A stretch of DNA of 64,000 bases from Desulfuribacillus stibiiarsenatis (lineage in GTDB: Bacteria; Bacillota; Bacilli; Desulfuribacillales; Desulfuribacillaceae). Both the position numbers and the translations under genes were made by a program. Below the pieces are notes generated by a model. The model was not told where the DNA came from. It was given only the letters and a program-made list of their open reading frames with translations, and made no database searches. Positions 8,496 through 47,765 of the stretch are shown here, in pieces. The stretch is from positions 1-64,000 of the forward strand of contig NZ_MJAT01000005.1 of the NCBI RefSeq assembly GCF_001742305.1, read 5' to 3'. Each line of letters starts with the position of its first letter. Within the stretch, counting starts at the first letter, position 1.

Positions 8496-9113
8496 ATGTT
8501 TTCGTTACATCAAGTTACCTATAAAAATATTTTGTCGATTGAGCATATGGAGATTCCAGATAAAAAGTTAACTTGCATTATAGGAGAAAGCGGAAGTGGA
8601 AAATCTACGTTATTAAAACTACTGAATCAGATGATCTCTCCAGATAGTGGAGAAATCTTATATAATGGCAAGTCGATAGACGTGTTAGATTCCATAGTCT
8701 TGAGAAGGGATGTTGTTATGCTTTCGCAAACGCCAATCATGTATCCAGCTTCTGTAAAGGAAAATTTATTGATAGGATTAGATTTTTCTGAACAAGAGCA
8801 CCCCAGCGAACAAGCTTTAAACGATGTTTTGCGAGATTTCCACCTAAACAAAAGACTGGAGGACTCCTGTGAGAGGCTTTCTGGTGGGGAAAGACAAAGG
8901 ATAGCTTTAGCGCGCATTACGCTTATGCAGCCCAAGGTATATTTGCTAGATGAGCCACCAGCATCACTGGATGAAGATACTGCAGATTGGATAATTCAAT
9001 ATCTAAAGGATTTAACCAGGCAACAAGGTGCGACTGTTGTTATGGTTACCCATTCACAAAATATAGCCCAGCAATACGCCGATCATTTGGTTGTGTTGAA
9101 AAAGATTGGGTAG
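8496..9113 (+). CDS. fetA: FetA-like ABC transporter ATP-binding protein
   Basis: A 205-residue ABC ATPase. Walker A GESGSGKST is at about residues 30-38, the signature LSGGERQR at about 127-134, Walker B YLLDEPPASLD at about 149-159 and the switch histidine in VTHS near 185. The short length and the pairing with a UPF0014-type permease match FetAB (YbbL-YbbM), described in E. coli as an iron exporter that helps resistance to oxidative stress. The start has AAAGGGA 7 bases upstream, within the end of the DUF2867 gene. It is followed 32 bases later by the permease gene. Confidence 0.85.
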   Translation: MFSLHQVTYKNILSIEHMEIPDKKLTCIIGESGSGKSTLLKLLNQMISPDSGEILYNGKSIDVLDSIVLRRDVVMLSQTPIMYPASVKENLLIGLDFSEQEHPSEQALNDVLRDFHLNKRLEDSCERLSGGERQRIALARITLMQPKVYLLDEPPASLDEDTADWIIQYLKDLTRQQGATVVMVTHSQNIAQQYADHLVVLKKIG

Positions 9114-9145
9114 TGCTGAAAAAGACGGAGAAGGTGGGATTTTCT

Positions 9146-9925
9146 ATGTCGAGTGTCATTGAACTACAGATGTGGCAGTTAGGGGCTGCTTATGTTTTCA
9201 TTCTAATATTATTAGTAATAGTAAGAGTCAAAGGGATTAAAAGGGAGACTGAAATTGTCCTTGCCAGTATTCGAATGACATTACAGCTTATTCTGGTAGC
9301 ATATATTTTGAGCTATATGTTTGATGTGAATCAGCCAATGTTAACGGTGATATTTCTTATTTGTATGCAAGTGTTTGCTATACATAATATTTTTAATCGT
9401 GTAAAAATAGAGCTACTTAAAGCAACTAAACTTGTCATTGCTTTTTCTATGGTGGTGGGAACGGTAACGAGTATACTCTACTTTAATTTAATAGTCATTC
9501 AATTTAGCCCTTGGCATGACCCGCGCTATTTTATACCAATTGCAGGGATGATTATTGGAAACTCTATGACAGGTATTAGCTTAGGAGTGACTCGTTTAGT
9601 GAGTGGCTTTCATGAGCAAAGGGAAATGGTGGAATGTTCATTGATGTTAGGGGCGACACCGAAGATGGCATCTAGATCGATTATAAACCAAGCGTTTGAC
9701 TCGGCAATATTACCCACGATAAACTCGATGGTTGGGATGGGCATAGTGTTTCTGCCAGGAATGATGACGGGGCAAATTTTATCTGGTATATCTCCGATTG
9801 TGGCGGTAGAATATCAAATTGCCATAATGCTAGGAATCGTCGGCAGTGTAACTTTGTCTGTCATTTTATTTGTGCAGTTAGGATACAAGACATTTTTCAA
9901 TCAAAAGGCGCAGTTGAATATTTAA
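9146..9925 (+). CDS. fetB: FetB-like ABC transporter permease (UPF0014)
   Basis: A 259-residue integral membrane protein with about seven hydrophobic segments. It belongs to the UPF0014/FetB family: IAGMIIGNSMTGISLGVTRL, then the conserved cytoplasmic coupling segment with E-x-SLMLGATP and the motif FLPGMMTGQILSG. A longer frame open from 8987 overlaps fetA; the ATG at 9146 is preferred because AAGGTGGG is just upstream and the protein then begins like its relatives. With fetA it should form an iron (or other metal) export ABC transporter. The substrate here is not tested. Confidence 0.87.
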   Translation: MSSVIELQMWQLGAAYVFILILLVIVRVKGIKRETEIVLASIRMTLQLILVAYILSYMFDVNQPMLTVIFLICMQVFAIHNIFNRVKIELLKATKLVIAFSMVVGTVTSILYFNLIVIQFSPWHDPRYFIPIAGMIIGNSMTGISLGVTRLVSGFHEQREMVECSLMLGATPKMASRSIINQAFDSAILPTINSMVGMGIVFLPGMMTGQILSGISPIVAVEYQIAIMLGIVGSVTLSVILFVQLGYKTFFNQKAQLNI

Positions 9926-10072
9926 AATAAGACTCTTTCAATTTTAAAAATAGCCGTAGAGTAGTGTGTTTAGGCTATTGCAGCTTTGTACTGAAAGCAG
10001 TACAATCAGATATTGAGATGAAATACAGTAATTATTTACTATTGTATGAAAAGAATTTAGGAGGATATTTTG

Positions 10073-11089
10073 TTGGACTTTCTTATGTCAGATTTTCTAG
10101 TATTTGTGTATTTTTTCATTGCGGCAGGCGTAACAGTTTATTCAGCAGTAAAATTATCAACCTATGCAGATGTCATAAGCGAGAAGACTTCTTTTGGTGG
10201 TCTGTTGATTGGGACGGTTCTTCTTGCGGCAGCTACATCACTGCCAGAGGTAACTACTACAGCATCGGCTGTCCTAATTGATAATCCGGACATAGCAATT
10301 GGTAATGTGTTAGGAAGTAATATTTTCAACGTATTGATACTAGCGGTGCTCGACATATGGTTCAGAAGAGGACGACTATTCTTATTTGCTTCTGCAACCC
10401 ATAGAATTACAGCGCTCCTAGGAATTATGATGTCAACGATTGTAATCGTTGCGATGCTATCGAATGTTTCCTACGAGTTTCTTGGTATTGGACTCAGTAG
10501 CTATATCATTGTTGCAACGTATATCATTGGCATGTGGGCAATTTCGAAGATTAACATGAAAGTAAAGTCGTCGATTCTCCAAGAAGAGATAAAGCCTCCA
10601 GCAAGTGACAATGAAGATATATCTGTAAAAACGGCAGTAATCGGTTTTGCTTCATTCTCTGTGGTCATTATGCTTTCGGGAACTGCATTAGCTGTGTTTG
10701 GAGATAAAATTGCAGTCATTACAGGTCTAGGCTCAACATTTGTCGGCAGTTTCTTAATTGCCGCTACAACCTCCTTGCCAGAAGTAGTCAGTGTGTATGC
10801 AGCGTTTCGATTATCGAATGTGAACCTGGCAATAGGCGCAGTATTAGGAAGCAATATTTTCAACATGTTAATTATTCCGTTTGCCGATCTTATGTATCGA
10901 AAGGGTAATATCTTGACGGCGATTGATTCAGTTCAGGTAATTACAGCCTTTGGTGGTGTTACTCTATCTGCACTTCTAATGTTTACGTTATACTACCGTA
11001 AGGCCAAGACAATTTGGCAATACTCTATACCGCCAGCCGTCATTACGGTTGTATACTTTGTCGTTACGTATATCATTTTTAACTATTAA
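10073..11089 (+). CDS. Sodium/calcium exchanger family protein (CaCA), copy 1
   Basis: A membrane antiporter of the calcium:cation family (YrbG-like), about 338 residues with some ten TM helices. The two inverted alpha-repeats that form the ion path are clear: one around GTVLLAAATSLPE with GNVLGSNIFNV, the other around FLIAATTSLPE with GAVLGSNIFNM. The acidic residue of each SLPE motif is the expected cation ligand. A loop of about 35 residues separates the halves. The start is TTG; AGGAGG (10059-10064) is 8 bases before TTG 10073 and 5 before TTG 10070, so either is possible. A closely similar second copy lies at 21545-22549. Confidence 0.9.
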   Translation: MDFLMSDFLVFVYFFIAAGVTVYSAVKLSTYADVISEKTSFGGLLIGTVLLAAATSLPEVTTTASAVLIDNPDIAIGNVLGSNIFNVLILAVLDIWFRRGRLFLFASATHRITALLGIMMSTIVIVAMLSNVSYEFLGIGLSSYIIVATYIIGMWAISKINMKVKSSILQEEIKPPASDNEDISVKTAVIGFASFSVVIMLSGTALAVFGDKIAVITGLGSTFVGSFLIAATTSLPEVVSVYAAFRLSNVNLAIGAVLGSNIFNMLIIPFADLMYRKGNILTAIDSVQVITAFGGVTLSALLMFTLYYRKAKTIWQYSIPPAVITVVYFVVTYIIFNY

Positions 11090-11389: not shown

Positions 11390-11734
11390 ATGCAACAACA
11401 ATTTATTAAGAATATACCATTTTCTCAAGCCTTATCTATGCAAGGGCTAATTGATTACCAACCAGGTAAGGTCGTAAGTTTAACATTATCACAAAGGTTA
11501 GACTTCAACATGACGCTATTTGCATTTGAAAAGGGAGAAGGAATTAGTGCTCATTCTGCGCCTGGTGATGCGCTGGTTCATATTTTGGATGGTAAGGCGG
11601 AAATCACAATTGGCGATGAGAAGATTATTGCTTCCGCAGGTGAAGTGGTAGTAATGCCAGCGAATATCCCTCACGCATTAGATGCAATTGAGAGATTTAA
11701 GATGTTTCTAGTGGTGGTAAAGCCGTCAGTGTAA
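11390..11734 (+). CDS. Small cupin-domain protein
   Basis: A 114-residue single cupin barrel. The two cupin motifs are recognisable: a first motif around GISAHSAPGDALVHILDGKAEI and a second around AGEVVVMPANIPHALDA. The first motif keeps only part of the usual metal-binding set (one His and one Glu-like position are replaced), while the second keeps its His. A small-molecule or metal-binding role is likely; catalysis is not evident. The start has AAGGGGG upstream. It is monocistronic, between an FNR-like promoter and a terminator, which suggests a function under oxygen limitation. Confidence 0.8.
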   Translation: MQQQFIKNIPFSQALSMQGLIDYQPGKVVSLTLSQRLDFNMTLFAFEKGEGISAHSAPGDALVHILDGKAEITIGDEKIIASAGEVVVMPANIPHALDAIERFKMFLVVVKPSV

Positions 11735-11808: not shown

Positions 11809-11847
11809 GCATGCAAAATGCTGTGTTTTTTAAAAAAACCATAAAAA

Positions 11848-11862
11848 TAATTATCATTATCA
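11848..11862. promoter_or_regulatory. Fur-box-like site, upstream copy
   Basis: TAATTATCATTATCA keeps the right half (ATTATCA) of the 7-1-7 Fur box TGATAATnATTATCA and differs at two places in the left half. It lies about 60 bases upstream of a perfect copy. Confidence 0.6.
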
Positions 11863-11903
11863 AAAATGTGATATAAATCATAGATTTTCAAGAAACAATC
11901 CTA

Positions 11904-11936
11904 TATAATTCTGATTGTAAATGATAATTATTATCA
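11904..11936. promoter_or_regulatory. Promoter -10 box and perfect Fur box
   Basis: A TATAAT at 11904-11909 predicts a start near 11916; the -35 region is weak. TGATAATTATTATCA at 11922-11936 is an exact match to the 7-1-7 Fur consensus of Bacillus and lies just downstream of the predicted start, where Fur-Fe2+ would block transcription. With the upstream copy the two sites bracket the promoter. The operon 11956-18561 is therefore predicted to be iron-repressed. Confidence 0.85.
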
Positions 11937-11955
11937 AAAACAGGGGGAATGTACG

Positions 11956-12942
11956 TTGAAAAAAGTATTGTTATTCAGTCTAATTCTTGTAGCAACCTTT
12001 GTGTTTATGGTTGGGTGCGATATGGAAGAGGTAGCTCAACCAGCACTAAAGGAAACACCAAAAGAAAATGTGGTAGCAGAAAAAGCAAATTATGTGTTTC
12101 TAACACCAAAGTCAGCACCTGCATACCCAGCGTTGTTAATGAAGGAGCAAGGTATTGATAATTTAGAAATTAACACTTGGGACACGGTAGAACAATTAGT
12201 GGCTAGCCTGCAGAAAAATGAAGCACAATTTACAGCTGTTCCTTTAAATGTAGCTGCTACTTTAGCTAAGAAAATGCCATTACAGTTGATTAACGTAAAT
12301 ACATGGGGCACTATTTTCATGGTTAGTACGGATGAATCAGTGAAAAGTTTAGCAGATTTACAAAACGAAACAATATTTGTATCACATAAAAGTGGACCAC
12401 CTGATGTGTTAATTCGATACTTATTAGAAAAAGAAGGTCTACTAGATAAAGTAACTCTACAATATGCAACACCGCCGGAAATCTCTCAACTAATCATTAG
12501 TGGAAAGATTAAACATGCGGTACTTCCAGAGCCTTCACTTAGCGGGGTTAGAATGCAATTAAAAGATAAGCTCTTTGAAGTAATCGATTTCCAAAAAACG
12601 TGGATGGCAGAGTACAATCAAAGCTTGCCACAAGCAGGCATAGTAGTAAATGCAAATTGGGCAAAAGCGAATCCAAAAGCAGTACAAGAATTCTTAGAAG
12701 CATATCAGCATGCTGCTGAAAACATTATGGTCGATCAAGCGAAAACAGCAAGTGTAGTAGCACGAGCTTTTGAGATGAAAGAGCCTGTAGTTCAAAGCTC
12801 ACTTAATAAAATGATCATTCAAGCAGTACCTGCACTAGAAGCAAAGCCTGCCATTGAAAAATATTTTAATACATTATTATTGCTGCAACCAGAAGCTATT
12901 GGGGAGAGTTTACCTGATGAAGGGTTTTATTATAAACCTTAA
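11956..12942 (+). CDS. NMT1/SsuA-type substrate-binding lipoprotein
   Basis: A 328-residue ABC-transporter binding protein. The signal peptide ends in a lipobox FMVGC, giving a lipidated Cys at residue 21. The mature part shows the type II fold of the nitrate/sulfonate/taurine and NMT1/THI5 group: AYPALLMKEQG, EQLVASLQKNEAQFTAVPLNVAATLA and LADLQNETIFV. The ligand cannot be read from the sequence. The start is TTG with AGGGGG 8 bases upstream; the perfect Fur box lies 20 bases before it. It is the first gene of a four-gene set with permease, ATPase and a giant activase. Confidence 0.88.
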   Translation: MKKVLLFSLILVATFVFMVGCDMEEVAQPALKETPKENVVAEKANYVFLTPKSAPAYPALLMKEQGIDNLEINTWDTVEQLVASLQKNEAQFTAVPLNVAATLAKKMPLQLINVNTWGTIFMVSTDESVKSLADLQNETIFVSHKSGPPDVLIRYLLEKEGLLDKVTLQYATPPEISQLIISGKIKHAVLPEPSLSGVRMQLKDKLFEVIDFQKTWMAEYNQSLPQAGIVVNANWAKANPKAVQEFLEAYQHAAENIMVDQAKTASVVARAFEMKEPVVQSSLNKMIIQAVPALEAKPAIEKYFNTLLLLQPEAIGESLPDEGFYYKP

Positions 12943-13687
12943 AAAAATAATATTAGGCTCGTTAGCGATAGCAACGGTGATTCTGATTTGGTGGGGGATA
13001 TCGAAAAACGTATCCCCTATCGTTTTACCGTCTCCTATAGAGACTATCGAAGCATTACAGAAGCTAGCGGAAAGTGGCAAGCTTTGGAAAGAAATAGCAA
13101 TTACGGCAGAGCGTGTATGTATTGGATTCACAATATCACTAGTTCTTGGCACCTTTCTAGGATGCATGATTGGATCGTTTCCTATGTTGTTTCATTTTTT
13201 CAAGCCAATCATTGTCATAATTCAGACAACCCCACCTATATCTTGGATTATTCTAGCTATCATATGGTTTGATTTTGGGGGCGCAGCGCCAATCTTTGTA
13301 GTTGTCATAGCAACGTTTCCGATTTTTGTTATAAACGCGATACAAGGAACTCGCCAGATTCCTTCTTCTTTAGTTGAAATGGCAAAGATATTTCATGCAA
13401 GTTTTCTGCAAATTGCAAAAGACATATATTTTCCTGCCCTATGGCCATTTGTATCCTCAGCTATCTCGATTTGTATAGGAATAAGCTGGAAGACAATTGT
13501 TATGGCTGAATTGTTAAGTAGTAGTTCAGGAGCTGGTGCTGCTCTAAGCTGGGCGCGCTTGCAATTGGAAACAGCACAGGTGTTAGCTTGGACGTTAGTC
13601 ATTGTAATACTTGGAGTTACGATTGAACAAGTTTTCCAAAGAATAAGTGATATGACAAGAGCCGGGAGGATTCAAGAATGGAAATAA
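12917..13687 (+). CDS. SsuC/TauC-type ABC transporter permease
   Basis: A 256-residue inner-membrane protein with about six TM helices (BPD_transp_1 family). The EAA-type coupling loop that docks on the ATPase is seen around EMAKIFHASFLQIAKDIYFP, and WLPSPIETI-like residues (VLPSPIETIEAL) open the periplasmic segment as in SsuC. It overlaps the end of the binding-protein gene by 26 bases; the ATG at 12917 is chosen over one at 12854 because it gives the normal length and has GGGGAG upstream. It is translationally coupled to both neighbours. Confidence 0.88.
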   Translation: MKGFIINLKKIILGSLAIATVILIWWGISKNVSPIVLPSPIETIEALQKLAESGKLWKEIAITAERVCIGFTISLVLGTFLGCMIGSFPMLFHFFKPIIVIIQTTPPISWIILAIIWFDFGGAAPIFVVVIATFPIFVINAIQGTRQIPSSLVEMAKIFHASFLQIAKDIYFPALWPFVSSAISICIGISWKTIVMAELLSSSSGAGAALSWARLQLETAQVLAWTLVIVILGVTIEQVFQRISDMTRAGRIQEWK

Positions 13688-14400
13688 AAAACCTTACTTT
13701 TTCATATCAAGGGAAACACGTATTTCAAGACTTCTCAATGACGATCCCGTCTCAAAAAATCACTTGTATATTAGGAAGGTCCGGGATTGGGAAGTCAACA
13801 TTACTACAGCTCATCGCAGGAATCAAAACACCTAAGCTTGGAATGATAACTCACCGGAATCACCCGACGAATGATTGTAAAATTAGCTATATTTTTCAAG
13901 AACATAGACTTCTTCCATGGAAAACAGCGTTAGAAAATGTTGAATTCGTGCTATTCAATAGTTATGAGCAAGTCAAGAGAAAAGAGCTAGCCAAACAAAT
14001 GCTAATGGCAGTCGGACTTGAGCAAGATTTACATGCATTCCCCCACGAGTTAAGTGGAGGCATGCGGCAGCGGGTATCGATTGCTAGGGCATTTGCTGTG
14101 AATCCAGACATTTTACTATTAGACGAACCGTTACAAGGGCTTGATATTACAACTCGGGGAGAAATCCAAAGACTATTCTTAAAGCTCTATCAAGAGTATA
14201 ATCCTACGGTTGTCTATGTGACGCACGATTTAGAGGATGCATTGATGGTCGCGGATTGCATTGTGGTATTTGCATATCAGCCAGTATATATCGGTTTCGA
14301 TGAATGTATTAATATATCAATTTATGAACGTGACAAAGATCCGCAAATACAAGATATTAGGCAGCGGTTATATAAACATATGGGACATATAGGGAAGTAA
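13678..14400 (+). CDS. SsuB/TauB-type ABC transporter ATP-binding protein
   Basis: A 240-residue ABC ATPase. Walker A GRSGIGKST is at about residues 36-44, the Q-loop FQEHRLLPW near 75-83, the signature LSGGMRQRVSIARA near 124-137, Walker B ILLLDEPLQGLD near 144-155 and the H-loop YVTHD near 180. The FQE-RLLPW form is typical of nitrate/sulfonate/taurine importers. It overlaps the permease by 10 bases, so the three transporter subunits are one translational unit. A fusion or extra regulatory domain is not present. Confidence 0.9.
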   Translation: MEIKNLTFSYQGKHVFQDFSMTIPSQKITCILGRSGIGKSTLLQLIAGIKTPKLGMITHRNHPTNDCKISYIFQEHRLLPWKTALENVEFVLFNSYEQVKRKELAKQMLMAVGLEQDLHAFPHELSGGMRQRVSIARAFAVNPDILLLDEPLQGLDITTRGEIQRLFLKLYQEYNPTVVYVTHDLEDALMVADCIVVFAYQPVYIGFDECINISIYERDKDPQIQDIRQRLYKHMGHIGK

Positions 14401-14433
14401 AGAAAGACATGAATCAATGAGGGGGAAAACATT

Positions 14434-17400
14434 ATGCCATCCAGTCTTGGGATTGATATAGGATCATCTTCAGTTAAGGTAGCAATCGTTGATAAACATA
14501 ACAAAACGCAATATACAAAGTATGTCTTACATTTTGGAAAGCCGCTAGATATATTGAAAGCAATACTAAATGAAATGCCTGATTCACTTCAAAAGGAAGT
14601 CCAATCCGTAGGTTTCACAGGAAATGGCAGTAAACAGTTTAAAGACTTAGACATTCCATATTTTAGCGAGCTATCTTCTCAATCGGTTTGGGCGAAGCAT
14701 GTTTACCCTGACGTAAAAACGATTATAGAAATGGGTGGGCAAGAGACCAAACGCATTCGCTTTACTGATCGTGGTATGCAAGTCGATATGAGTAGTGATT
14801 GTTCTGCGGGGACAGGGTCTTTTTTAGAACATCAAGCAGAACGTTTAGGGTTACCGCTTGATTGCTATCGAGATGCATTAGCAAAACATACAGATATACC
14901 AAGAATAGCCGGGCGATGTAGCGTGTTTGCCAAGACAGATATTATTCATTTACAACAAGAAGGCACATCGATTGATAATATCCTCATGGGATTAAGTTAT
15001 GCCGTTGCCCGCACTTTTAAAGGTGCAGTCATTAAGAAGCAAAGACTTGAATTACCTATCCTTTTTCTTGGCGGTGTAGCATCAAATCCTGCGATGGTTC
15101 ACGCAATTGAGAAACTACTGGACGTGGAAGGGCAGCTAGTGGTACCAGAAGAACATAATGTTTCAGGTGCTATCGGTGCCGCGATGCAGGCATTACAACA
15201 AGCTAATGAATTAAAATGGGACGATATAGTATTAATCATCAACAGCTATAGTGATAATAAAATGGTAAGCACTGCAAGCTTAGCGAAACTAGAAATGGAT
15301 AGCGATAGACGATTCAATCCGTTAACTGCAAAAAGCAGCAAAGGAATCTATGACGGCCCAAAAAACACTACTATCGATACATCAGAAATAACTGGCGTAT
15401 ATATAGGGGTTGACGTAGGTTCAACGAGTACCAATGTAGTAATGTTAAGCCAAAACGGTGATGTGCTTGATTACCGCTATCTTGCAACGGCTGGAAAACC
15501 ATTACAAGTAGTTCAACAAGGGTTACAAGAAATTGGAGTGAATGTAAAAGGTATTAAAGTACTAGGGGTAGGTGTGACAGGGTCAGGCAGATATCTAACT
15601 GGTGAATATGTTGGAGCAGATCTCGTAAAGGATGAGATTACAGCTCAAGCACGTGCAGCAGCTGAATATAATGCAAACGTGGATACAGTTCTAGAAATTG
15701 GCGGTCAGGATTCCAAGTTTATTAGGCTCAACCAGGGTACAATTGTTGATTTTGAGATGAACAAAGTCTGTGCGGCAGGTACGGGATCGTTTCTTGAAGA
15801 ACAATGCAAGAAATTGAACATACAAGTAGAGGACATGGGAGAAATGGCATTGGCGGCCGAGGAACCGAGTAATCTTGGGGAACGCTGCACTGTTTTTATG
15901 GAAACCAGCCTCACATCTTACTTACTGCAAGGGGCAAAGTTGAATGACTTAGTGGCTGGATTATGTTACGGGGTAGCTGCGAACTATCTTAACCGTGTTG
16001 TAGCTGGCAGACCATTAGGTGATAATATTGTATTTCAGGGCGGAGTCGCCAATAACTTAGGTGTATTAGCGGCCTTCGAGAAATTAACAGGGAAAAAAAT
16101 TACACAGGCTCCCCATGCGAGTATTACAGGCTGTATTGGAGCGGCACTATTAGCAAAAGATGCGAACATCATCGAAAGCCAATTTAAGGGTTTTGATAAA
16201 TTTGCAGGTTCTATCGATGTAGAATCTATAAAATTAAACGTAAAGGCAGTCGGGAATCTATCAAACGCTGACGTAAGTACGGGTAAAAATCCTAGTAGTG
16301 AGCCGGAATTATTTGCACTCCGTAACCAGCGATACCTTGCACATTACACTGGCGAAAAAATCCCTGGAAAGAAAACAATCGGGATTCCAAGGGTGCTATT
16401 TGTCCATAAGATGTTCCCAATGTTCCGCACTTTATTTACGCATCTAGGTTATAACGTGGTTCTTTCTGATGCTACGGATGAGTCTATTGTCAAGGCAAGT
16501 CAGGAGTATAGCTTTGAGGAAGCATGTTTCCCAGTGAAATTAATTAACGGGCATGTGGCCAATCTATTAGGTCAAGGTGTAGATTATGTATTCTTGCCGA
16601 ACGTCGTAACAATGAAACACCCTGTATCTAAGACTCGACAGGATTATCCGTGTACGTTCATGCAACAGGCAGCACTAACTGTGAAACTGGCAATGGATTT
16701 AGAAGGTAAGGGAGTTGAGTTGCTAAACCCCACTCTCTCATTTAAATTCGGTAAATTGTATATGATGAAAACATTCGTTAAGTTAGGACTGAAACTTGGC
16801 AGTCTACCACATAACACGATTAAGGGCGTTAAGAAAGCCTTTGGAGCATTTGAAGCTTTTGATAAAGGCTTAGAAACTATGGGCAAGGAATATCTAAGCA
16901 AGGTATCTACGAATGAGTTGGTCTTCGTGTTGATGACTCGTCCTTATGGGGTTATTGATCCAGTGCTGAACATGAAGATACCACAAAAACTTCATCAAAT
17001 GGGCCATAAGGTTATACCGATGGATGTACTACCAGTGCACGGATATGATATGAACGTAGATTATCCGAACATGTATTGGCCATTTGGTCAACATATTTTG
17101 GCAGCAGCCAAAATCATTAAGGATACACCGAATCTCTATGCAATCTATCTCACAAACCATGGTTGTGGTCCAGATACGATGATATCGCATTTTATGCAAC
17201 AAGAAATGGGTGACAAGCCTTATCTTCATCTTGAGGTTGATGAACACTATTCCAGTGTCGGGGTACAAACTCGCTTGGAAGCATTTATAAATAGTCTAGA
17301 AAAGCAAATATCGTCAAGGGTTGATGTAACCGATACTGCGCCTAACCAAGTTGCAGCCACTACAGAAGCGCATGTGGAAGCTGTTAATACAGCTACGCAA

Positions 17401-18561
17401 TCAATACTGACCAAACAAGGCCTGCATCAAGTACTTGTATTACCAAACTGGGGTAGCTATTCTAAAGTGGCAGCGAAATACTTAATCAATCGCGGTCATA
17501 AGGTGGAGATACTTCCACAAACCACTACTGTTTCGATGGCGATAGGTAGGAAGTTCAGCATATCGAAGGAATATTTCACCATGGTCAGTCTCTTAGGAGA
17601 TGTGTTTTCTTATTTGGCTAAGCCTACCCAGGAAAACACGCAAGTATCGCTGCTAATACCAACTTCCGAGGGTGCTGAAATTCATGGTTTATATGGGCAG
17701 CTAGTACAGAGAGAATTATTGAATGCTAATTATACCGACGTCAAAGTAGTGAGTCCATTCATTGAAGACCTGTTCCAGGATGGAGCGTGGTTGTCTTATG
17801 GAGAAGATTTGTTTAAAAGAATGCTAGCAGTTGACTGGTTAAATTATGTATTAAGTCAGTGTGGTGGTATATATGGGGCTAACAAACAAACGCTTACAGA
17901 ATATGATCATGCGATTGATACGATTGAAGAATGGTTTGAAGATGGTTCGCAATGTAAAGCAATAGCTGCGAAACTTTTACAAGGTCATAACCCTAATCTC
18001 ATTCCGATAGGGATGATTGGTGAAGCATGGGCAATTTACAATCCTGCTCTGCGCAAAGAGTTTGAGTTGGAAATCAACCGCTTAGGGGGCACATTGATTA
18101 ATCCTCCCCTTTCAGAGTTAGTGCTTACGAACATCATGCAGAAACGTGATGAACACGCGGCACAAAAAGAAGGGAAGAAATATCTTCAATATATGATGCT
18201 TTATATGAAAACACACGGGCTCTATCAAGATTTTGCGAAAAAAGTAGAAGACTCCGGCACTATCTTTGCTGATCCTAAAGAAATTATGTTGGAAGGTACG
18301 AAATATTTAAAACATTTCTTTGCAGGTTTGGCGCAGCACCGTTTAGGAAAACCAAAAATCATGAGACAACAAGGCATAAAAGGCGTGATACACTTTACGA
18401 GTATGTATGAAAATGTCGGTATTATTGTCAATCTATTGAGTGGTAAAGCGAGGGAAGAAGCGAACGTACCATGGCTTAACTTCGGATATGATGGTAGATT
18501 AACACAGAAGGACGAACTCAACTTAGAGGCTTTCGTAGAGTCCTTAAAAGAAGAAAAATAG
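14434..18561 (+). CDS. Giant tandem acyl-CoA dehydratase activase-like Fe-S protein
   Basis: A 1375-residue protein. Two ASKHA ATPase domains of the BcrAD/BadFG (HgdC-type activase) family are fused: GIDIGSSSVKV near residue 6 and GVDVGSTSTNV near 325. In dimeric activases two Cys per subunit hold one [4Fe-4S] cluster; here each domain has both (C123 in CSAGTGSF and C162 in RCSVF; C446 in CAAGTGSF and C485 in RCTVF), so one chain could carry a whole cluster. Residues about 650-1375 contain a DUF2229-like region with further Cys (C698, C740, C911, C1143). No separate HgdA/HgdB dehydratase is nearby. It follows the ABC ATPase gene by 33 bases with GAGGGGG and is the last gene of the Fur-boxed operon. 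The substrate is unknown. Confidence 0.85.
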   Translation: MPSSLGIDIGSSSVKVAIVDKHNKTQYTKYVLHFGKPLDILKAILNEMPDSLQKEVQSVGFTGNGSKQFKDLDIPYFSELSSQSVWAKHVYPDVKTIIEMGGQETKRIRFTDRGMQVDMSSDCSAGTGSFLEHQAERLGLPLDCYRDALAKHTDIPRIAGRCSVFAKTDIIHLQQEGTSIDNILMGLSYAVARTFKGAVIKKQRLELPILFLGGVASNPAMVHAIEKLLDVEGQLVVPEEHNVSGAIGAAMQALQQANELKWDDIVLIINSYSDNKMVSTASLAKLEMDSDRRFNPLTAKSSKGIYDGPKNTTIDTSEITGVYIGVDVGSTSTNVVMLSQNGDVLDYRYLATAGKPLQVVQQGLQEIGVNVKGIKVLGVGVTGSGRYLTGEYVGADLVKDEITAQARAAAEYNANVDTVLEIGGQDSKFIRLNQGTIVDFEMNKVCAAGTGSFLEEQCKKLNIQVEDMGEMALAAEEPSNLGERCTVFMETSLTSYLLQGAKLNDLVAGLCYGVAANYLNRVVAGRPLGDNIVFQGGVANNLGVLAAFEKLTGKKITQAPHASITGCIGAALLAKDANIIESQFKGFDKFAGSIDVESIKLNVKAVGNLSNADVSTGKNPSSEPELFALRNQRYLAHYTGEKIPGKKTIGIPRVLFVHKMFPMFRTLFTHLGYNVVLSDATDESIVKASQEYSFEEACFPVKLINGHVANLLGQGVDYVFLPNVVTMKHPVSKTRQDYPCTFMQQAALTVKLAMDLEGKGVELLNPTLSFKFGKLYMMKTFVKLGLKLGSLPHNTIKGVKKAFGAFEAFDKGLETMGKEYLSKVSTNELVFVLMTRPYGVIDPVLNMKIPQKLHQMGHKVIPMDVLPVHGYDMNVDYPNMYWPFGQHILAAAKIIKDTPNLYAIYLTNHGCGPDTMISHFMQQEMGDKPYLHLEVDEHYSSVGVQTRLEAFINSLEKQISSRVDVTDTAPNQVAATTEAHVEAVNTATQSILTKQGLHQVLVLPNWGSYSKVAAKYLINRGHKVEILPQTTTVSMAIGRKFSISKEYFTMVSLLGDVFSYLAKPTQENTQVSLLIPTSEGAEIHGLYGQLVQRELLNANYTDVKVVSPFIEDLFQDGAWLSYGEDLFKRMLAVDWLNYVLSQCGGIYGANKQTLTEYDHAIDTIEEWFEDGSQCKAIAAKLLQGHNPNLIPIGMIGEAWAIYNPALRKEFELEINRLGGTLINPPLSELVLTNIMQKRDEHAAQKEGKKYLQYMMLYMKTHGLYQDFAKKVEDSGTIFADPKEIMLEGTKYLKHFFAGLAQHRLGKPKIMRQQGIKGVIHFTSMYENVGIIVNLLSGKAREEANVPWLNFGYDGRLTQKDELNLEAFVESLKEEK

Positions 18562-18584: not shown

Positions 18585-18623
18585 ATCGAAAAAGTGTATC
18601 GAAAAAGTGTATCGAAAAAGTGT
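18585..18623. repeat. Three tandem copies of a 13-bp unit
   Basis: ATCGAAAAAGTGT is repeated three times without change, just after the activase stop codon and before the terminator. No function is apparent. Confidence 0.85.
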
Positions 18624-18640
18624 ATAGGATTGAAGGAAAT

Positions 18641-18677: not shown

Positions 18678-21335
18678 TCATTGTTTCTCAAGACGAAACT
18701 TAAACAATTCCATTACTACTAGCAGGAAAGATGCTAATAGTAAAAGTGGAAAGAATGTACCGAGCGGTATTGGTTCTACTTGCAGAATGTTTTGCAGCAC
18801 GCTGTTATGAGTCGCAAAAATATGGATTCCAAAAGCGGCGACAACGCCGCCGATGACATAGTAATTTCGAGAGATGGGAACGCGGAAAGCGGAAAGCGTC
18901 TCGGAGCGGCAATTGAATACGTGTATATTCTCAAACAGCACCATTAGCATCAAGATTAGATTTCTTGCCATATGCTCATCCATACCTAATGATAAGAGTG
19001 AAGCCCATAATCCAAACGCCCCAATGGCCATAGTGGCTCCAGAAATACAAATTTGTTTGATCATGACTGGATTGAATATGCCTTCGGAAGGTTTTCTCGG
19101 AGGCCTTTTCATAATATCTCGCTCTGCGCCCTCTAAGGCTAGTGTTACATGCTGAAAGCCATTGGTTACTAAGTTCAACCATAATATCTGTACGGCAAGG
19201 AGCGGAATTGGTAGACCAAATAAAAGAGCAAATAGGAATAATAATACCTCTGCAAAGCCTGTTGCCACAAGAAGGTATATAACTTTGCGGATATTAATAT
19301 AAGCTGTCCTTCCTTCTTCAATTCCAGCTACAATGGATGTGAAATTATCATCTGTAACAATGATTGATGCGATTTCTTTTGTAACGTCTGTTCCAGAACC
19401 CATTGCAACACCAATATTGGCATTCTTGAGGGCGGGAGCATCGTTGGCGCCGTCACCAGTAACGGCAACGAAATTTCCTAATTGCGTCAGGGCCTGTACA
19501 ATTTGCAGTTTCTGTAAGGGAGTTACCCTTGCAAATACGCGAACACGCTTGACAACTTCAAGGAATCCCGGATGAGTAAAATCTTCGAAAACAGCTAATT
19601 GAGATCCTGTGATTACATCTTTCCCATTGTTTGCAATCCCTAACTCTTTAGCAATTGCAAGGGCGGTCAATGGGTGATCGCCAGTAATCATAGCGACTTG
19701 GACGCCTGCTTGGTGGCAAGTATCTACAGCTGCTTTTACTTCTGGTCGCAGTGGGTCGATAAGAGCAATCAGACCGAGAAGGTTTAAGTTCCTTACATCG
19801 GAAATCGCAGGTGTTACTCTTGGAACGTGTTGAGAAAGTGTAGCGTCAGCAATTGCGATCACTCGGTAGCCTTGATTCGCTAAATCATTTGCTTGTTGCT
19901 CAATCGCTTGTGTATCGATTGACGCCACTTCACCAGAGCTCATGGTATGGCTGCATAGGGGTAGAATCGACTCTAGAGCGCCTTTGATTGCTAATTTCAC
20001 TACCTCCCCATCTTGATAAAAGGTTGCTGAATAACGCAATTCGGACTCAAAAGGGATGTCGTGAATAATTTTCTTGGAATTTCTAAACGCCTTGGGCTGT
20101 ATGCCATGCTTATACCCTAGCGCTAATAATGCCACATCTACCGCGTCGCCACTATGGACCCATTCTTGTTGTTCGTCATCTAAGGTTGCTTCGTTCGTCA
20201 TGATAGCCGACTCGACAATTCGATTGAGATGGGATGAATTATTTAGAATCTCCCCCGTGCCATTATAACCTTCCCCTGTGATTTTGAACTTGTCCCCGCT
20301 TGGCAGTACAATTAATTTTACAGTTTGTTGGTTCACGGTAAGTGTTCCTGTTTTGTCACTCGCAACAAAAGTACAGCTACCTAAACTCTCCACAGCTGTC
20401 AGCTTGCGAACAATGACACTTCGCTTCGACATCCTTTTTGTCGCGACTGACAATGCAACAGTAATGGCCACTGGTAAGCCTTCGGGAATCGCAGAAACAG
20501 CCAAAGCAACAGCCAAAAAGAATATGTCTACATAAGCAATACCTTGATAGGAGGCTAGCACAGCCAGTAGAACACAAACTCCTAGCACGATATAACTGAT
20601 ATCCTTTGAGAACTTCTCCATTCGAATAGAAAGTGGCGGCTTATTTGACTCTGTTGAAACAGTAGCATCAGCTATTTTCCCTAACTCTGTGCTATGCCCT
20701 GTTGCTACCACAATTCCTATGCCACGACCAGAAACAACAGTTGAACCTGCATACCCCATATTTAAACGATCACTTATAGGATTGTCTGTGGATAAGGACT
20801 GTACATCCTTCATTCTAGCTATCGATTCCCCTGTTAGTAGAGATTCGTCAATCGTTAATTGATTGACTTGCACAAAGCGTACATCCGCAGGGACTTTATT
20901 CCCGGATTCTAAATAGATAATATCTCCAGGTAATAATTCTTCTGCAGGAAGGTCGATGATTTTGCCATCACGTTTTGTTCTAGCATAAATCTTTAGTAGA
21001 TTTTGTAGCGCTGCAGCACTTTTCTCCGCTCCATATTCTTGAAACGAGCCAAGTAATGCATTGGCGAGGATTACTATAAAAATAAACAACGCATCAATCG
21101 TTTCACCAATCATAGTTGAGAACAAACCAGCCGCAATCAGGATATAAATTAATGGACTTAGAAACTGGCGTGCAAATATTTCAAGCATGGTAGGGAGCTT
21201 TTTCGAAGGTAGCACATTCTGACCGTATACCTTTATGCGATTATTGGCATCAACAGTGGTCAAGCCTTCTTGTTCGTTTGTTTGAAGAAAATCTACTACA
21301 TCTTTTATCTCTAATGCATGCCATTGATGATTCAT
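18678..21335 (-). CDS. P-type cation-transporting ATPase (P2 type)
   Basis: An 885-residue P-type ATPase. An N-terminal cation-ATPase domain (WHALEIKDVVDFLQT) is followed by TM1-2, the actuator domain with LTGES, TM3-4 with the ion-site motif PEGLP, the phosphorylation site DKTGTLT with Asp327, the nucleotide domain, the hinge TGDGANDAPAL and about six further TM segments. The TM6 motif reads NLVTNG, where Ca2+ pumps of the SERCA type have NLVTDG, so one acidic ion ligand is missing and the ion is uncertain. The start has GGGAGGTGG upstream. It diverges from antiporter copy 2, whose family and position make calcium a reasonable but unproven substrate. Confidence 0.9.
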   Translation of the reverse strand: MNHQWHALEIKDVVDFLQTNEQEGLTTVDANNRIKVYGQNVLPSKKLPTMLEIFARQFLSPLIYILIAAGLFSTMIGETIDALFIFIVILANALLGSFQEYGAEKSAAALQNLLKIYARTKRDGKIIDLPAEELLPGDIIYLESGNKVPADVRFVQVNQLTIDESLLTGESIARMKDVQSLSTDNPISDRLNMGYAGSTVVSGRGIGIVVATGHSTELGKIADATVSTESNKPPLSIRMEKFSKDISYIVLGVCVLLAVLASYQGIAYVDIFFLAVALAVSAIPEGLPVAITVALSVATKRMSKRSVIVRKLTAVESLGSCTFVASDKTGTLTVNQQTVKLIVLPSGDKFKITGEGYNGTGEILNNSSHLNRIVESAIMTNEATLDDEQQEWVHSGDAVDVALLALGYKHGIQPKAFRNSKKIIHDIPFESELRYSATFYQDGEVVKLAIKGALESILPLCSHTMSSGEVASIDTQAIEQQANDLANQGYRVIAIADATLSQHVPRVTPAISDVRNLNLLGLIALIDPLRPEVKAAVDTCHQAGVQVAMITGDHPLTALAIAKELGIANNGKDVITGSQLAVFEDFTHPGFLEVVKRVRVFARVTPLQKLQIVQALTQLGNFVAVTGDGANDAPALKNANIGVAMGSGTDVTKEIASIIVTDDNFTSIVAGIEEGRTAYINIRKVIYLLVATGFAEVLLFLFALLFGLPIPLLAVQILWLNLVTNGFQHVTLALEGAERDIMKRPPRKPSEGIFNPVMIKQICISGATMAIGAFGLWASLLSLGMDEHMARNLILMLMVLFENIHVFNCRSETLSAFRVPISRNYYVIGGVVAAFGIHIFATHNSVLQNILQVEPIPLGTFFPLLLLASFLLVVMELFKFRLEKQ

Positions 21336-21544: not shown

Positions 21545-22549
21545 TTGGTATTTGTATACTTTTTAATAGCTTCTATAGTTACTGTGTATTCTGCGATGAA
21601 GTTATCGAATTATGCAGATGTACTGAGTGAGAAAACATCATTCGGAGGTTTACTCATTGGTACTGTATTGTTAGCCGCTGCAACTTCACTACCGGAAGTT
21701 ACAACAACGATTTCAGCCATTGTCATTGACAATCCGGACATTGCCATTGCTAATGTTCTTGGAAGTAATATATTCAATGTACTGGTGATAGCGGTCTTCG
21801 ATATCCTGTTTCGTCGGAAACGACTGTTTTTGTTAGCTTCTTATACCCACAGAATTACTGCAACTTTAGGTATCGTATTAACGATTATTGTCATGGTCGC
21901 CATGCTCCTAGATACGACATATCAATTGATTGGTATTGGATTAAGTAGCATCCTCTTAGTTATTGTGTACGGATTAGGGATGTGGGTCATATCGAAAATC
22001 AACATCCAAGTAAAGTCGCATATTTTACAGGAGGAAATACAAGCAGAATCGAAGATTACCGAACCTAAAGTTGCAGATATATCAGTAAGGCAAGCGGTGA
22101 TAGGATTTGCGGTTTTCTCGCTAGTCATCTTAGTCTCAGGAAGCGCCCTAGCAATCCTAGGAGATAAGATTGCGATTATCACTGGCTTAGGGTCTACCTT
22201 TGTAGGTAGTTTCTTGATTGCGGCTACAACGTCCCTTCCTGAGGTAGTCAGTGTATACGCAGCACTAAAGCTATCCAATGTGAATCTAGCCTTGGGTGCT
22301 GTTCTAGGTAGTAATATATTTAACATGTTGATTATTGCTTTTGCAGACTTAGTATATCGGCATGGTAGTATTCTTGGAGCCATTGATCCAATTCAGTTTG
22401 TTACAGCATTTGGTGGTGCAGTGATGGCGTTACTGTTACTTGTTACGCTGTTTTATCGGAAAGCCAAAAATCTATGGGTATACTCCATTCCACCTACAAT
22501 TATAGTAATCACTTATTTTATCGTGACCTTTATCATCTTTACGCAGTGA
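21545..22549 (+). CDS. Sodium/calcium exchanger family protein (CaCA), copy 2
   Basis: A 334-residue paralogue of the antiporter at 10073, with the same alpha-repeats (GTVLLAAATSLPE with ANVLGSNIFNV, and FLIAATTSLPE with GAVLGSNIFNM) and the same ILQEEI stretch in the central loop. The N-terminus is a few residues shorter. The start is TTG with GAGG 8 bases upstream; no ATG start is available in frame. It is transcribed divergently from the P-type ATPase gene, 209 bases apart. The close similarity of the two copies suggests a duplication followed by insertion or separation of the genes in between. Confidence 0.9.
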   Translation: MVFVYFLIASIVTVYSAMKLSNYADVLSEKTSFGGLLIGTVLLAAATSLPEVTTTISAIVIDNPDIAIANVLGSNIFNVLVIAVFDILFRRKRLFLLASYTHRITATLGIVLTIIVMVAMLLDTTYQLIGIGLSSILLVIVYGLGMWVISKINIQVKSHILQEEIQAESKITEPKVADISVRQAVIGFAVFSLVILVSGSALAILGDKIAIITGLGSTFVGSFLIAATTSLPEVVSVYAALKLSNVNLALGAVLGSNIFNMLIIAFADLVYRHGSILGAIDPIQFVTAFGGAVMALLLLVTLFYRKAKNLWVYSIPPTIIVITYFIVTFIIFTQ

Positions 22550-22823: not shown

Positions 22824-22895
22824 GAGATAGAGATAGAGATAGAGATAGAGATAGAGATAGAGATAGAGATAGAGATAGAGATAGAGATAGAGATA
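22824..22895. repeat. Hexanucleotide microsatellite (GAGATA)12
   Basis: Twelve perfect copies of GAGATA occupy 72 bases and end 21 bases before the start codon of the GGDEF-EAL gene, just ahead of its ribosome binding site. Copy-number changes by replication slippage are expected in such tracts. It lies in the presumed leader or promoter region, not in the coding frame. Confidence 0.95.
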
Positions 22896-22916
22896 GAATA
22901 GTTATGGGGTGAAAAC

Positions 22917-39393: not shown

Positions 39394-39627
39394 TAATAGA
39401 ATACGACAAGGCTACGATAAGGAAAGTAAAAAACGGAGCATTACAGAGAGTGGGCAAACAGCTGAAATTGCTTACATGTTGAAGTTTTTGAAAATGCACC
39501 TTGGAGCCGTGCAGAATGATTCTGCAACGGGGAAACCCGTTATTCGTTTGAGTGATGCAAAGGACTTTGCATAATCAGAGTGGAACCACGAGAAATCGTC
39601 TCTGTTTTTAGAGATGGTTTCTTTTTT
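39394..39627 (+). ncRNA. T-box riboswitch, cysteine-specific
   Basis: The leader has the T-box landmarks in order: AAGGAAAGTAA near 39419, ACAGAGAG..GGG..GCTGAAA (about 39443-39468), the specifier segment GAAAA-TGC-ACC with UGC (Cys) at 39495-39497, TTGGAGC, the T-box core AGAGTGGAACCACG (39577-39590) and a terminator (arms from 39591 and to 39622, then T6). Uncharged tRNA-Cys should pair with the core and allow read-through into cysE-cysS. Confidence 0.9.
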
Positions 39628-47554: not shown

Positions 47555-47580
47555 ATCATCTGTTCGACAAAAAATGAATA

Positions 47581-47706
47581 CTCCGTAGACAGTAGGTTGC
47601 TTAGGCATAAAATATCCTACCGAGGTAAAGCTTGAATGCATAGTAATCAATTGATTTGATTCCTTATGATATTTATTGCCCTCGCGTGTCTGCGAGGGCT
47701 TTGTTT
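47581..47706 (+). ncRNA. Ribosomal protein L10 leader RNA
   Basis: The leader has the L10-leader signature: CCGTAGACAGTAGGTTGC paired across the internal loop with AATATCCTACCGAGGTAA, followed by an intrinsic terminator (GCCCTCGC/GCGAGGGC at 47678-47699, then TTGTTT). L10-L12 binding to this leader is known to attenuate rplJ-rplL in Firmicutes. Confidence 0.85.
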
Positions 47707-47765
47707 ATTCTCAGAATAGAAAAGAAGCTATATTTCATTGATATTTGAAACCAGGAGGTGTGTTC

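Follow-up and report, generated by a model that had tools for sequence, protein, structure and literature searches.

A candidate Fur-controlled operon pairing a small-molecule importer with a giant activase in Desulfuribacillus stibiiarsenatis

ATP-driven activases and double-cubane cluster proteins (DCCPs) form machines that carry out some of the hardest reductions in biology. The activase family is known mainly from the fermentation of amino acids and aromatic compounds, and we know of no function for its giant single-chain members. In BzdO, a [4Fe-4S] cluster is held by three cysteines (Cys95, Cys128 and Cys380) and an aqua ligand (PMC11971306). In C. difficile, an operon composed of ssuA2B2C2 and a hydrogenase-like gene (CD630_29890-29920) rises under low iron (PMC6311696). 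Here we describe a four-gene locus of Desulfuribacillus stibiiarsenatis, an organism inferred from its gene content to be an anaerobe. The window, i.e. the whole stretch of 64,000 nucleotides that was analyzed, carries on its plus strand the genes for a substrate-binding lipoprotein, an ATP-binding cassette (ABC) permease and an ABC ATPase (together the trio), followed by the gene for a giant activase of 1375 residues (14434..18561), hereafter named ACT. Judged from sequence, this importer and this giant electron-transfer protein are probably switched on together at low iron. A literature search for this module found no description of it, which is weak evidence as most subscription papers were beyond reach.

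The giant activase and its cysteine positions

Pfam recognizes in ACT two BcrAD_BadFG domains, a DUF2229 domain and a partial HGD-D domain, and leaves the C-terminal region without assignment. Four domains can be delineated, all on the plus strand. Domain 1 (14434..15333, approximate bounds) and domain 2 (15403..16155) are two copies of an ASKHA activase, with the cluster cysteines Cys123 and Cys162 in the first and Cys446 and Cys485 in the second. Conservation of both cysteine pairs, of the type that bridges a [4Fe-4S] cluster, places the protein in the activase family, and the nearest solved relatives of domain 2 activate 2-hydroxyacyl-CoA dehydratases and benzoyl-CoA reductases. Domain 3 (16375..17358) has a HadC/BzdO/DCCP-like fold and keeps Cys698, Cys740 and Cys911, and domain 4 (17419..18558) is a second DCCP/dehydratase-like fold. 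A search of the PDB with a sequence profile of the ACT C-terminal region gave no match, and the relationship came from a fold search. AlphaFold models of residues 636-1375 (pLDDT 86.8, pTM 0.87) and 996-1375 (pLDDT 87.7, pTM 0.89) matched solved dehydratases, benzoyl-CoA reductases and double-cubane proteins. For domain 3 the match was 3o3m_D (Z 16.3, rmsd 3.8, 273 aligned residues) and for domain 4 it was 7yzm_A (Z 14.9, rmsd 4.9, 283 aligned, next unrelated 8.4); the next unrelated folds in these searches had Z near 8-10. Comparison of the profiles of the two domains (E = 4.6e-7) puts C698, C740 and C911 opposite Y1047, E1082 and E1326. The three-cysteine cluster site typical of dehydratases and DCCPs is thus present in domain 3 and absent from domain 4, where Tyr1047 (17572-17574), Glu1082 (17677-17679) and Glu1326 (18409-18411) occupy the conserved cysteine positions. 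The predicted structures make ACT a single chain in which two activase domains are fused to two folds of the substrate type. Because both dehydratase/DCCP-like folds lie within its own chain, ACT may be self-contained, an idea already put forward in a preliminary description of this DNA and favored by these predictions.

In an alignment of 81 full-length giants, ten cysteines and a four-cysteine linker motif are about 95% conserved. The ABC-linked clade to which ACT belongs (support 1.000) departs from this pattern. Its 10 members all keep the first seven cysteines, whereas the last three positions are Tyr or His, Glu, and Glu or Asp in the nine members whose C-terminus could be read, and the linker motif is gone, with 0-1 cysteine left there. 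The giants of the tree set outside the clade have the ten cysteines and 4-5 linker cysteines in 28 of 28 cases, while all nine full-length clade members lack both the four-cysteine linker and the three C-terminal cysteines of a canonical giant. His729, His887, His909 (beside Cys911), Glu1079, Tyr1325 and Asn1327 are invariant in the clade. The Tyr/Glu/Glu site defining this subfamily therefore looks rebuilt in sequence, perhaps into a hard-ligand metal site or a substrate pocket, and the clade is apparently an undescribed branch of nitrogenase-like reductases. Elsewhere in the genome (G000:C12:144683-147615; L042 6678-9778), a giant split into three genes, COG3580-COG3581-COG1924, lies beside spoIIA/spoVA-like sporulation genes and retains the cysteines missing from ACT.

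The operon, its relatives and their Fur boxes

The first gene of the operon encodes an NMT1/SsuA-like substrate-binding lipoprotein (11956..12942, TTG start, lipobox ..VGC) that ends with the motif IGxxLPDEGFYY common to its family. It overlaps by 26 nt the permease gene (about 12917..13687), which itself overlaps by 10 nt the gene for an SsuB/TauB-like ATPase (13678..14400). The ACT gene begins 33 nt past the end of the latter, and a scan of the window found no terminator-like site between the four genes. A perfect 7-1-7 Fur box, TGATAATTATTATCA, is located at 11922..11936 and may act as a downstream operator; two overlapping near-matches at 11842..11862, with two mismatches each, would form an upstream operator. 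The near-matches (11842-11856 and 11848-11862) are shifted by 6 bases in the manner of an extended Fur box. Between both sites, a TATAAT-like -10 element was noticed by eye at 11904..11909 on the plus strand; it was not listed by the promoter scan of the window, and its -35 is weak. The boxes and the gene layout are as the preliminary description had reported them. Its "SsuABC-like" label holds at the level of the NMT1/SsuA superfamily, to which the importer belongs by its Pfam matches (NMT1, BPD_transp_1 and ABC_tran), and does not hold for the SsuA subfamily of sulfonate importers: the binding protein scores 44.9 bits against that model, far under the cut-off of 163.5, and is likewise far under the cut-off of the TauA model. 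By sequence profile, its nearest solved relative is 3hn0, deposited as a nitrate transport protein.

No other perfect 7-1-7 site occurs in the 3.1 Mb genome. Four further sites have one mismatch and lie at a flavodoxin-DUF3793 pair, at a DUF2325 gene, near cobT and at an HTH gene (the last two assigned by eye). Sites with up to two mismatches are not enriched (62 versus 65 for a reversed control pattern), and for this reason only sites with 0-1 mismatch were given genome-wide weight. Four Fur-family genes are encoded in the genome.

A phylum-wide genome sample yielded eight genomes with ACT orthologues and a further class search added one. These nine orthologues, 39-47% identical to ACT over the aligned part, come from other classes of the phylum. 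None was found in the genomes sampled from the class of D. stibiiarsenatis itself, which carry nothing but canonical giants or shorter relatives; the giants of these class-mates (26-28% identity) were rejected as orthologues since they are of the canonical type. Presence of ACT was sporadic in the class searches around the orthologues (2 of 4, 2 of 82 and 3 of 15 genomes). With start codons in the relatives' genes assigned mechanically, the trio adjoins ACT in seven of the nine relatives, i.e. at 8 of 10 clade loci counting the window, and in several gene orders; like the Fur box counts below, these figures refer to small, partly related sets. L199 has the order of the window, binding protein-permease-ATPase-ACT. 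In L198 and L200, which are 95% identical and count as one independent case, the order is ACT-ATPase-binding protein-permease, and in L207 it is ACT-binding protein-permease-ATPase. At L201, ACT is followed by a hydrogenase-like gene, the binding protein, two permeases and the ATPase. A CRP gene (L202) or two cupin genes (L203) stand between the ATPase and ACT in two other relatives, and L204 and L205 have ACT without the trio. No binding protein or permease of the trio type was found at 83 further loci with a giant activase, of which about 55 span at least 12 kb. Of 8 genomes with ACT, 7 have the binding protein, compared with 86 of the other 389 (p = 2e-4).

A tree built from concatenated transporters joins the window trio with ACT-less transporters from its own class (support 100), L201 with L262 (100), L202 and L203 with L183 (99), and L198, L199 and L207 with each other (90). 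The ACT tree disagrees, as it places the window as sister to L199. Because the ACT-linked trios sit in about four places of the transporter tree, the pairing would have arisen repeatedly, about four times by this reading of the sequences, and such repeated joining is good evidence of a functional linkage.

Fur boxes with at most two mismatches occur at the trio or ACT operon of L198, L199, L200, L201, L202 (one of them perfect) and L207, which represent five independent cases, and before ACT alone at L205. In the eight loci taken together, about 1.7 two-mismatch sites were expected and 8 were seen, and 8 sites with 0-1 mismatch were seen with essentially none expected; several of these 8 + 8 sites sit at other iron genes. 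Such a box is found at 7 of 9 ACT loci versus 7 of about 48 transporter-only loci (p = 4e-4, related loci counted), and one of this quality at 3 of 78 other giants. Among the transporter loci without ACT, boxes are carried by L182 and L036, relatives of the window trio, and by L183, L037, L186 and L262. Fur control may thus belong first to these transporter branches.

The preliminary description had supposed Fur control of the operon and a functional pairing of transporter and activase, and had called for a search for the same gene order in relatives. Most relatives' operons do have boxes, which, with the perfect site at the promoter described here, supports a putative Fur regulation, and the search was positive at the 8 loci mentioned above, in several orders that speak for the pairing. 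Its overall inference is in part upheld, as regards Fur control, the pairing and the self-contained system. The cysteine losses specific to the clade and the recurring CRP-like, cupin, flavodoxin, Fur and Suf neighbors had escaped it.

Neighboring genes

A cupin gene (11390..11734, plus strand) lies upstream of the operon and is separate from it. It is possibly a part of the module because its product is 52% identical to a cupin of L203 encoded between the transporter and ACT. A CRP/FNR-like regulator is encoded near ACT in eight of the nine relatives and is absent at L201 and in the window. L202 and L205 contain Fur-family genes, L202 SufCB-like genes, and L205 a FecCD-type siderophore importer (all genes of L205 as read from sequence). 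At L201, a flavodoxin-DUF3793 pair lies directly upstream of ACT; the homologous pair of D. stibiiarsenatis is the one with the one-mismatch Fur box. SAM-methyltransferases found near the trio were rejected as a part of the module, as they are of different families at different loci.

The trio family is also found beside SufBC-like genes (L247, L251, L260, L263 and L202) and beside [FeFe]-hydrogenase-type genes (L201, L039, L239, L257, L265, L267 and L271), which hints that it has a general connection with the supply of Fe-S clusters. The trios without ACT that are nearest to that of the window (L181, L182 and L036) are accompanied by a SAM-methyltransferase, a saccharopine-dehydrogenase-like gene and, at L181, an MFS exporter-like gene, a combination that recalls opine metallophore clusters. 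Another importer layout is seen at L262 (4783-11692), with a Fur box, a CRP gene, a cobW-like GTPase, an ABC-like ATPase, a second binding protein and the trio, and no ACT.

In the window, an ABC ATPase and a UPF0014 (FetB-like) permease, together similar to the FetAB iron exporter, are encoded at 8496-9925, about 2 kb upstream of the operon. Two Na/Ca-exchanger-like genes (10070-11089 and 21545-22549) lie on either side of it and a P-type cation ATPase gene (18678-21335) lies downstream, forming a local cation-transport neighborhood. Directly past the ACT stop codon, the 13-base repeat ATCGAAAAAGTGT is present in three perfect copies (18585-18625). The hexamer GAGATA is repeated 13 times at 22824-22901, right before a PAS-GGDEF-EAL gene, a spacing that is possibly phase-variable. 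A T-box leader (39405-39606) and a ribosomal L10 leader (47565-47714) are both ordinary.

Possible functions and comparison with known systems

We give about an even chance to the proposal that iron starvation induces the import and the ATP-driven reduction of a small molecule, in one chain and with flavodoxin as a plausible donor. As the conserved sites suggest, Fur-Fe(II) on both operators would shut the promoter, and the operon would open when iron falls. The lipoprotein would capture a small ligand to be imported by the permease and the ATPase, as expected from their families. The two activase domains of ACT could reproduce, inside one chain, the dimer that activases usually form and share one bridging [4Fe-4S] cluster. 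ATP hydrolysis would send low-potential electrons, perhaps from an iron-stress flavodoxin, to the three-cysteine [4Fe-4S] cluster of domain 3. The substrate reduced by this cluster would sit between domains 3 and 4, the latter offering Tyr/Glu/Glu in place of a second cluster. The substrate would be the imported molecule, and the step would serve iron supply and not carbon metabolism, for example by reducing an imported chelate so that its iron is set free, or by breaking down the chelator. An iron-related substrate is attractive because the neighbors are iron-linked, and a ferric chelate would be a plausible candidate. The more specific idea that ACT is an ATP-driven metal-chelate reductase, whose Tyr-Glu-Glu (and His) pocket would bind the imported Fe(III) or chelate and free the iron by a very low-potential reduction, appears unlikely. 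If true, this would be to our knowledge the first such machine in iron acquisition.

Several points weigh against import and reduction acting on one molecule at low iron. The trio often occurs where ACT is missing (most of 94 genomes), and its ligand may thus not be the substrate of ACT. The resemblance of the binding protein to SsuA is weak. No Fur box was found at L203, and L204 has only sites with three mismatches. The C. difficile ssu operon was reported to be controlled indirectly by Fur, without a Fur site (PMC6311696).

ACT could instead be an iron-sparing isoenzyme, on the model of flavodoxin replacing ferredoxin: a low-iron giant that would need fewer Fe-S clusters for an unchanged housekeeping reduction, next to a transporter bringing a nutrient that the cell cannot make when iron is lacking. 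The loss of the linker motif and of one three-cysteine site, i.e. probably of two clusters, the association of the clade with Fur, and the flavodoxin preceding ACT in L201 would all fit. However, seven cysteines are retained, the near-invariant Tyr/Glu/Glu and the new invariant His729, His887 and His909 look like a new site rather than a mere loss, and the genome offers no canonical giant that ACT could replace, just the split COG3580-COG3581-COG1924 set. We regard this explanation as unlikely. It is also rather improbable that ACT activates a separate enzyme, either a DCCP-like protein or the product of a full dehydratase-type gene present in the genome (C34:162143-164123; PF06050, 378 bits), and that the operon merely co-regulates two unrelated iron-starvation functions. 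The C34 gene is already adjoined by its own single activase gene, ACT has two substrate-domain folds of its own, and the pairing with the transporter arose repeatedly.

A role in sulfur or nitrogen scavenging, in which the sulfur for Fe-S synthesis would come from a sulfonate, or a compound akin to it, that the importer takes up and ACT opens by reduction, draws on the SsuA/TauA/NrtA-like family of the binding protein, on the trios beside sufBC-like genes (five loci) or [FeFe]-hydrogenase-type genes (about seven) and on the co-regulation of the C. difficile ssu operon with iron. It is hard to reconcile with the scores far under the SsuA and TauA cut-offs, with the lack of any desulfonation enzyme seen nearby and with an operon marked by Fur and not by a sulfur regulator, and we consider it improbable. 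Coming back to iron-induced import and reduction, the clade unites a rebuilt site, a dedicated importer and Fur control. It provides a physiological cue (iron starvation), a candidate route for the substrate and the exact residues to mutate, by which the function of ACT becomes testable. An iron-stress role would be added to a family so far associated mainly with fermentation.

Among known systems, the DCCP and DCCP reductase pair and the 2-hydroxyacyl-CoA dehydratases and class I benzoyl-CoA reductases (HadBC-HadI and BzdNOPQ) also associate an activase with tandem DCCP/Had folds, and the three cysteines of the BzdO type are kept in domain 3 of ACT. ACT differs from them in being a single chain, in having one substrate fold without cysteines, and in its gene neighborhood and regulation. 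With the giant CoA-enzyme activases (about 1400 residues) it shares the length, the four-domain order and 34-37% identity over the full length, but the ACT clade lacks the four-cysteine linker, has Tyr/His, Glu and Glu/Asp at the last three positions, and is linked to Fur and to a transporter. The trio has the same domain families and fold class as the SsuABC, TauABC and NrtABC importers; however, it is well under their subfamily cut-offs and no sulfonate or nitrate genes are near it. Likened by make-up, the ssuA2-ssuB2-ssuC2 operon of C. difficile also joins an SsuABC-like importer to a redox Fe-S protein, with a hydrogenase-like partner in place of ACT and no direct Fur site reported. L201 unites both layouts, as it combines a hydrogenase-like gene and the trio with ACT.

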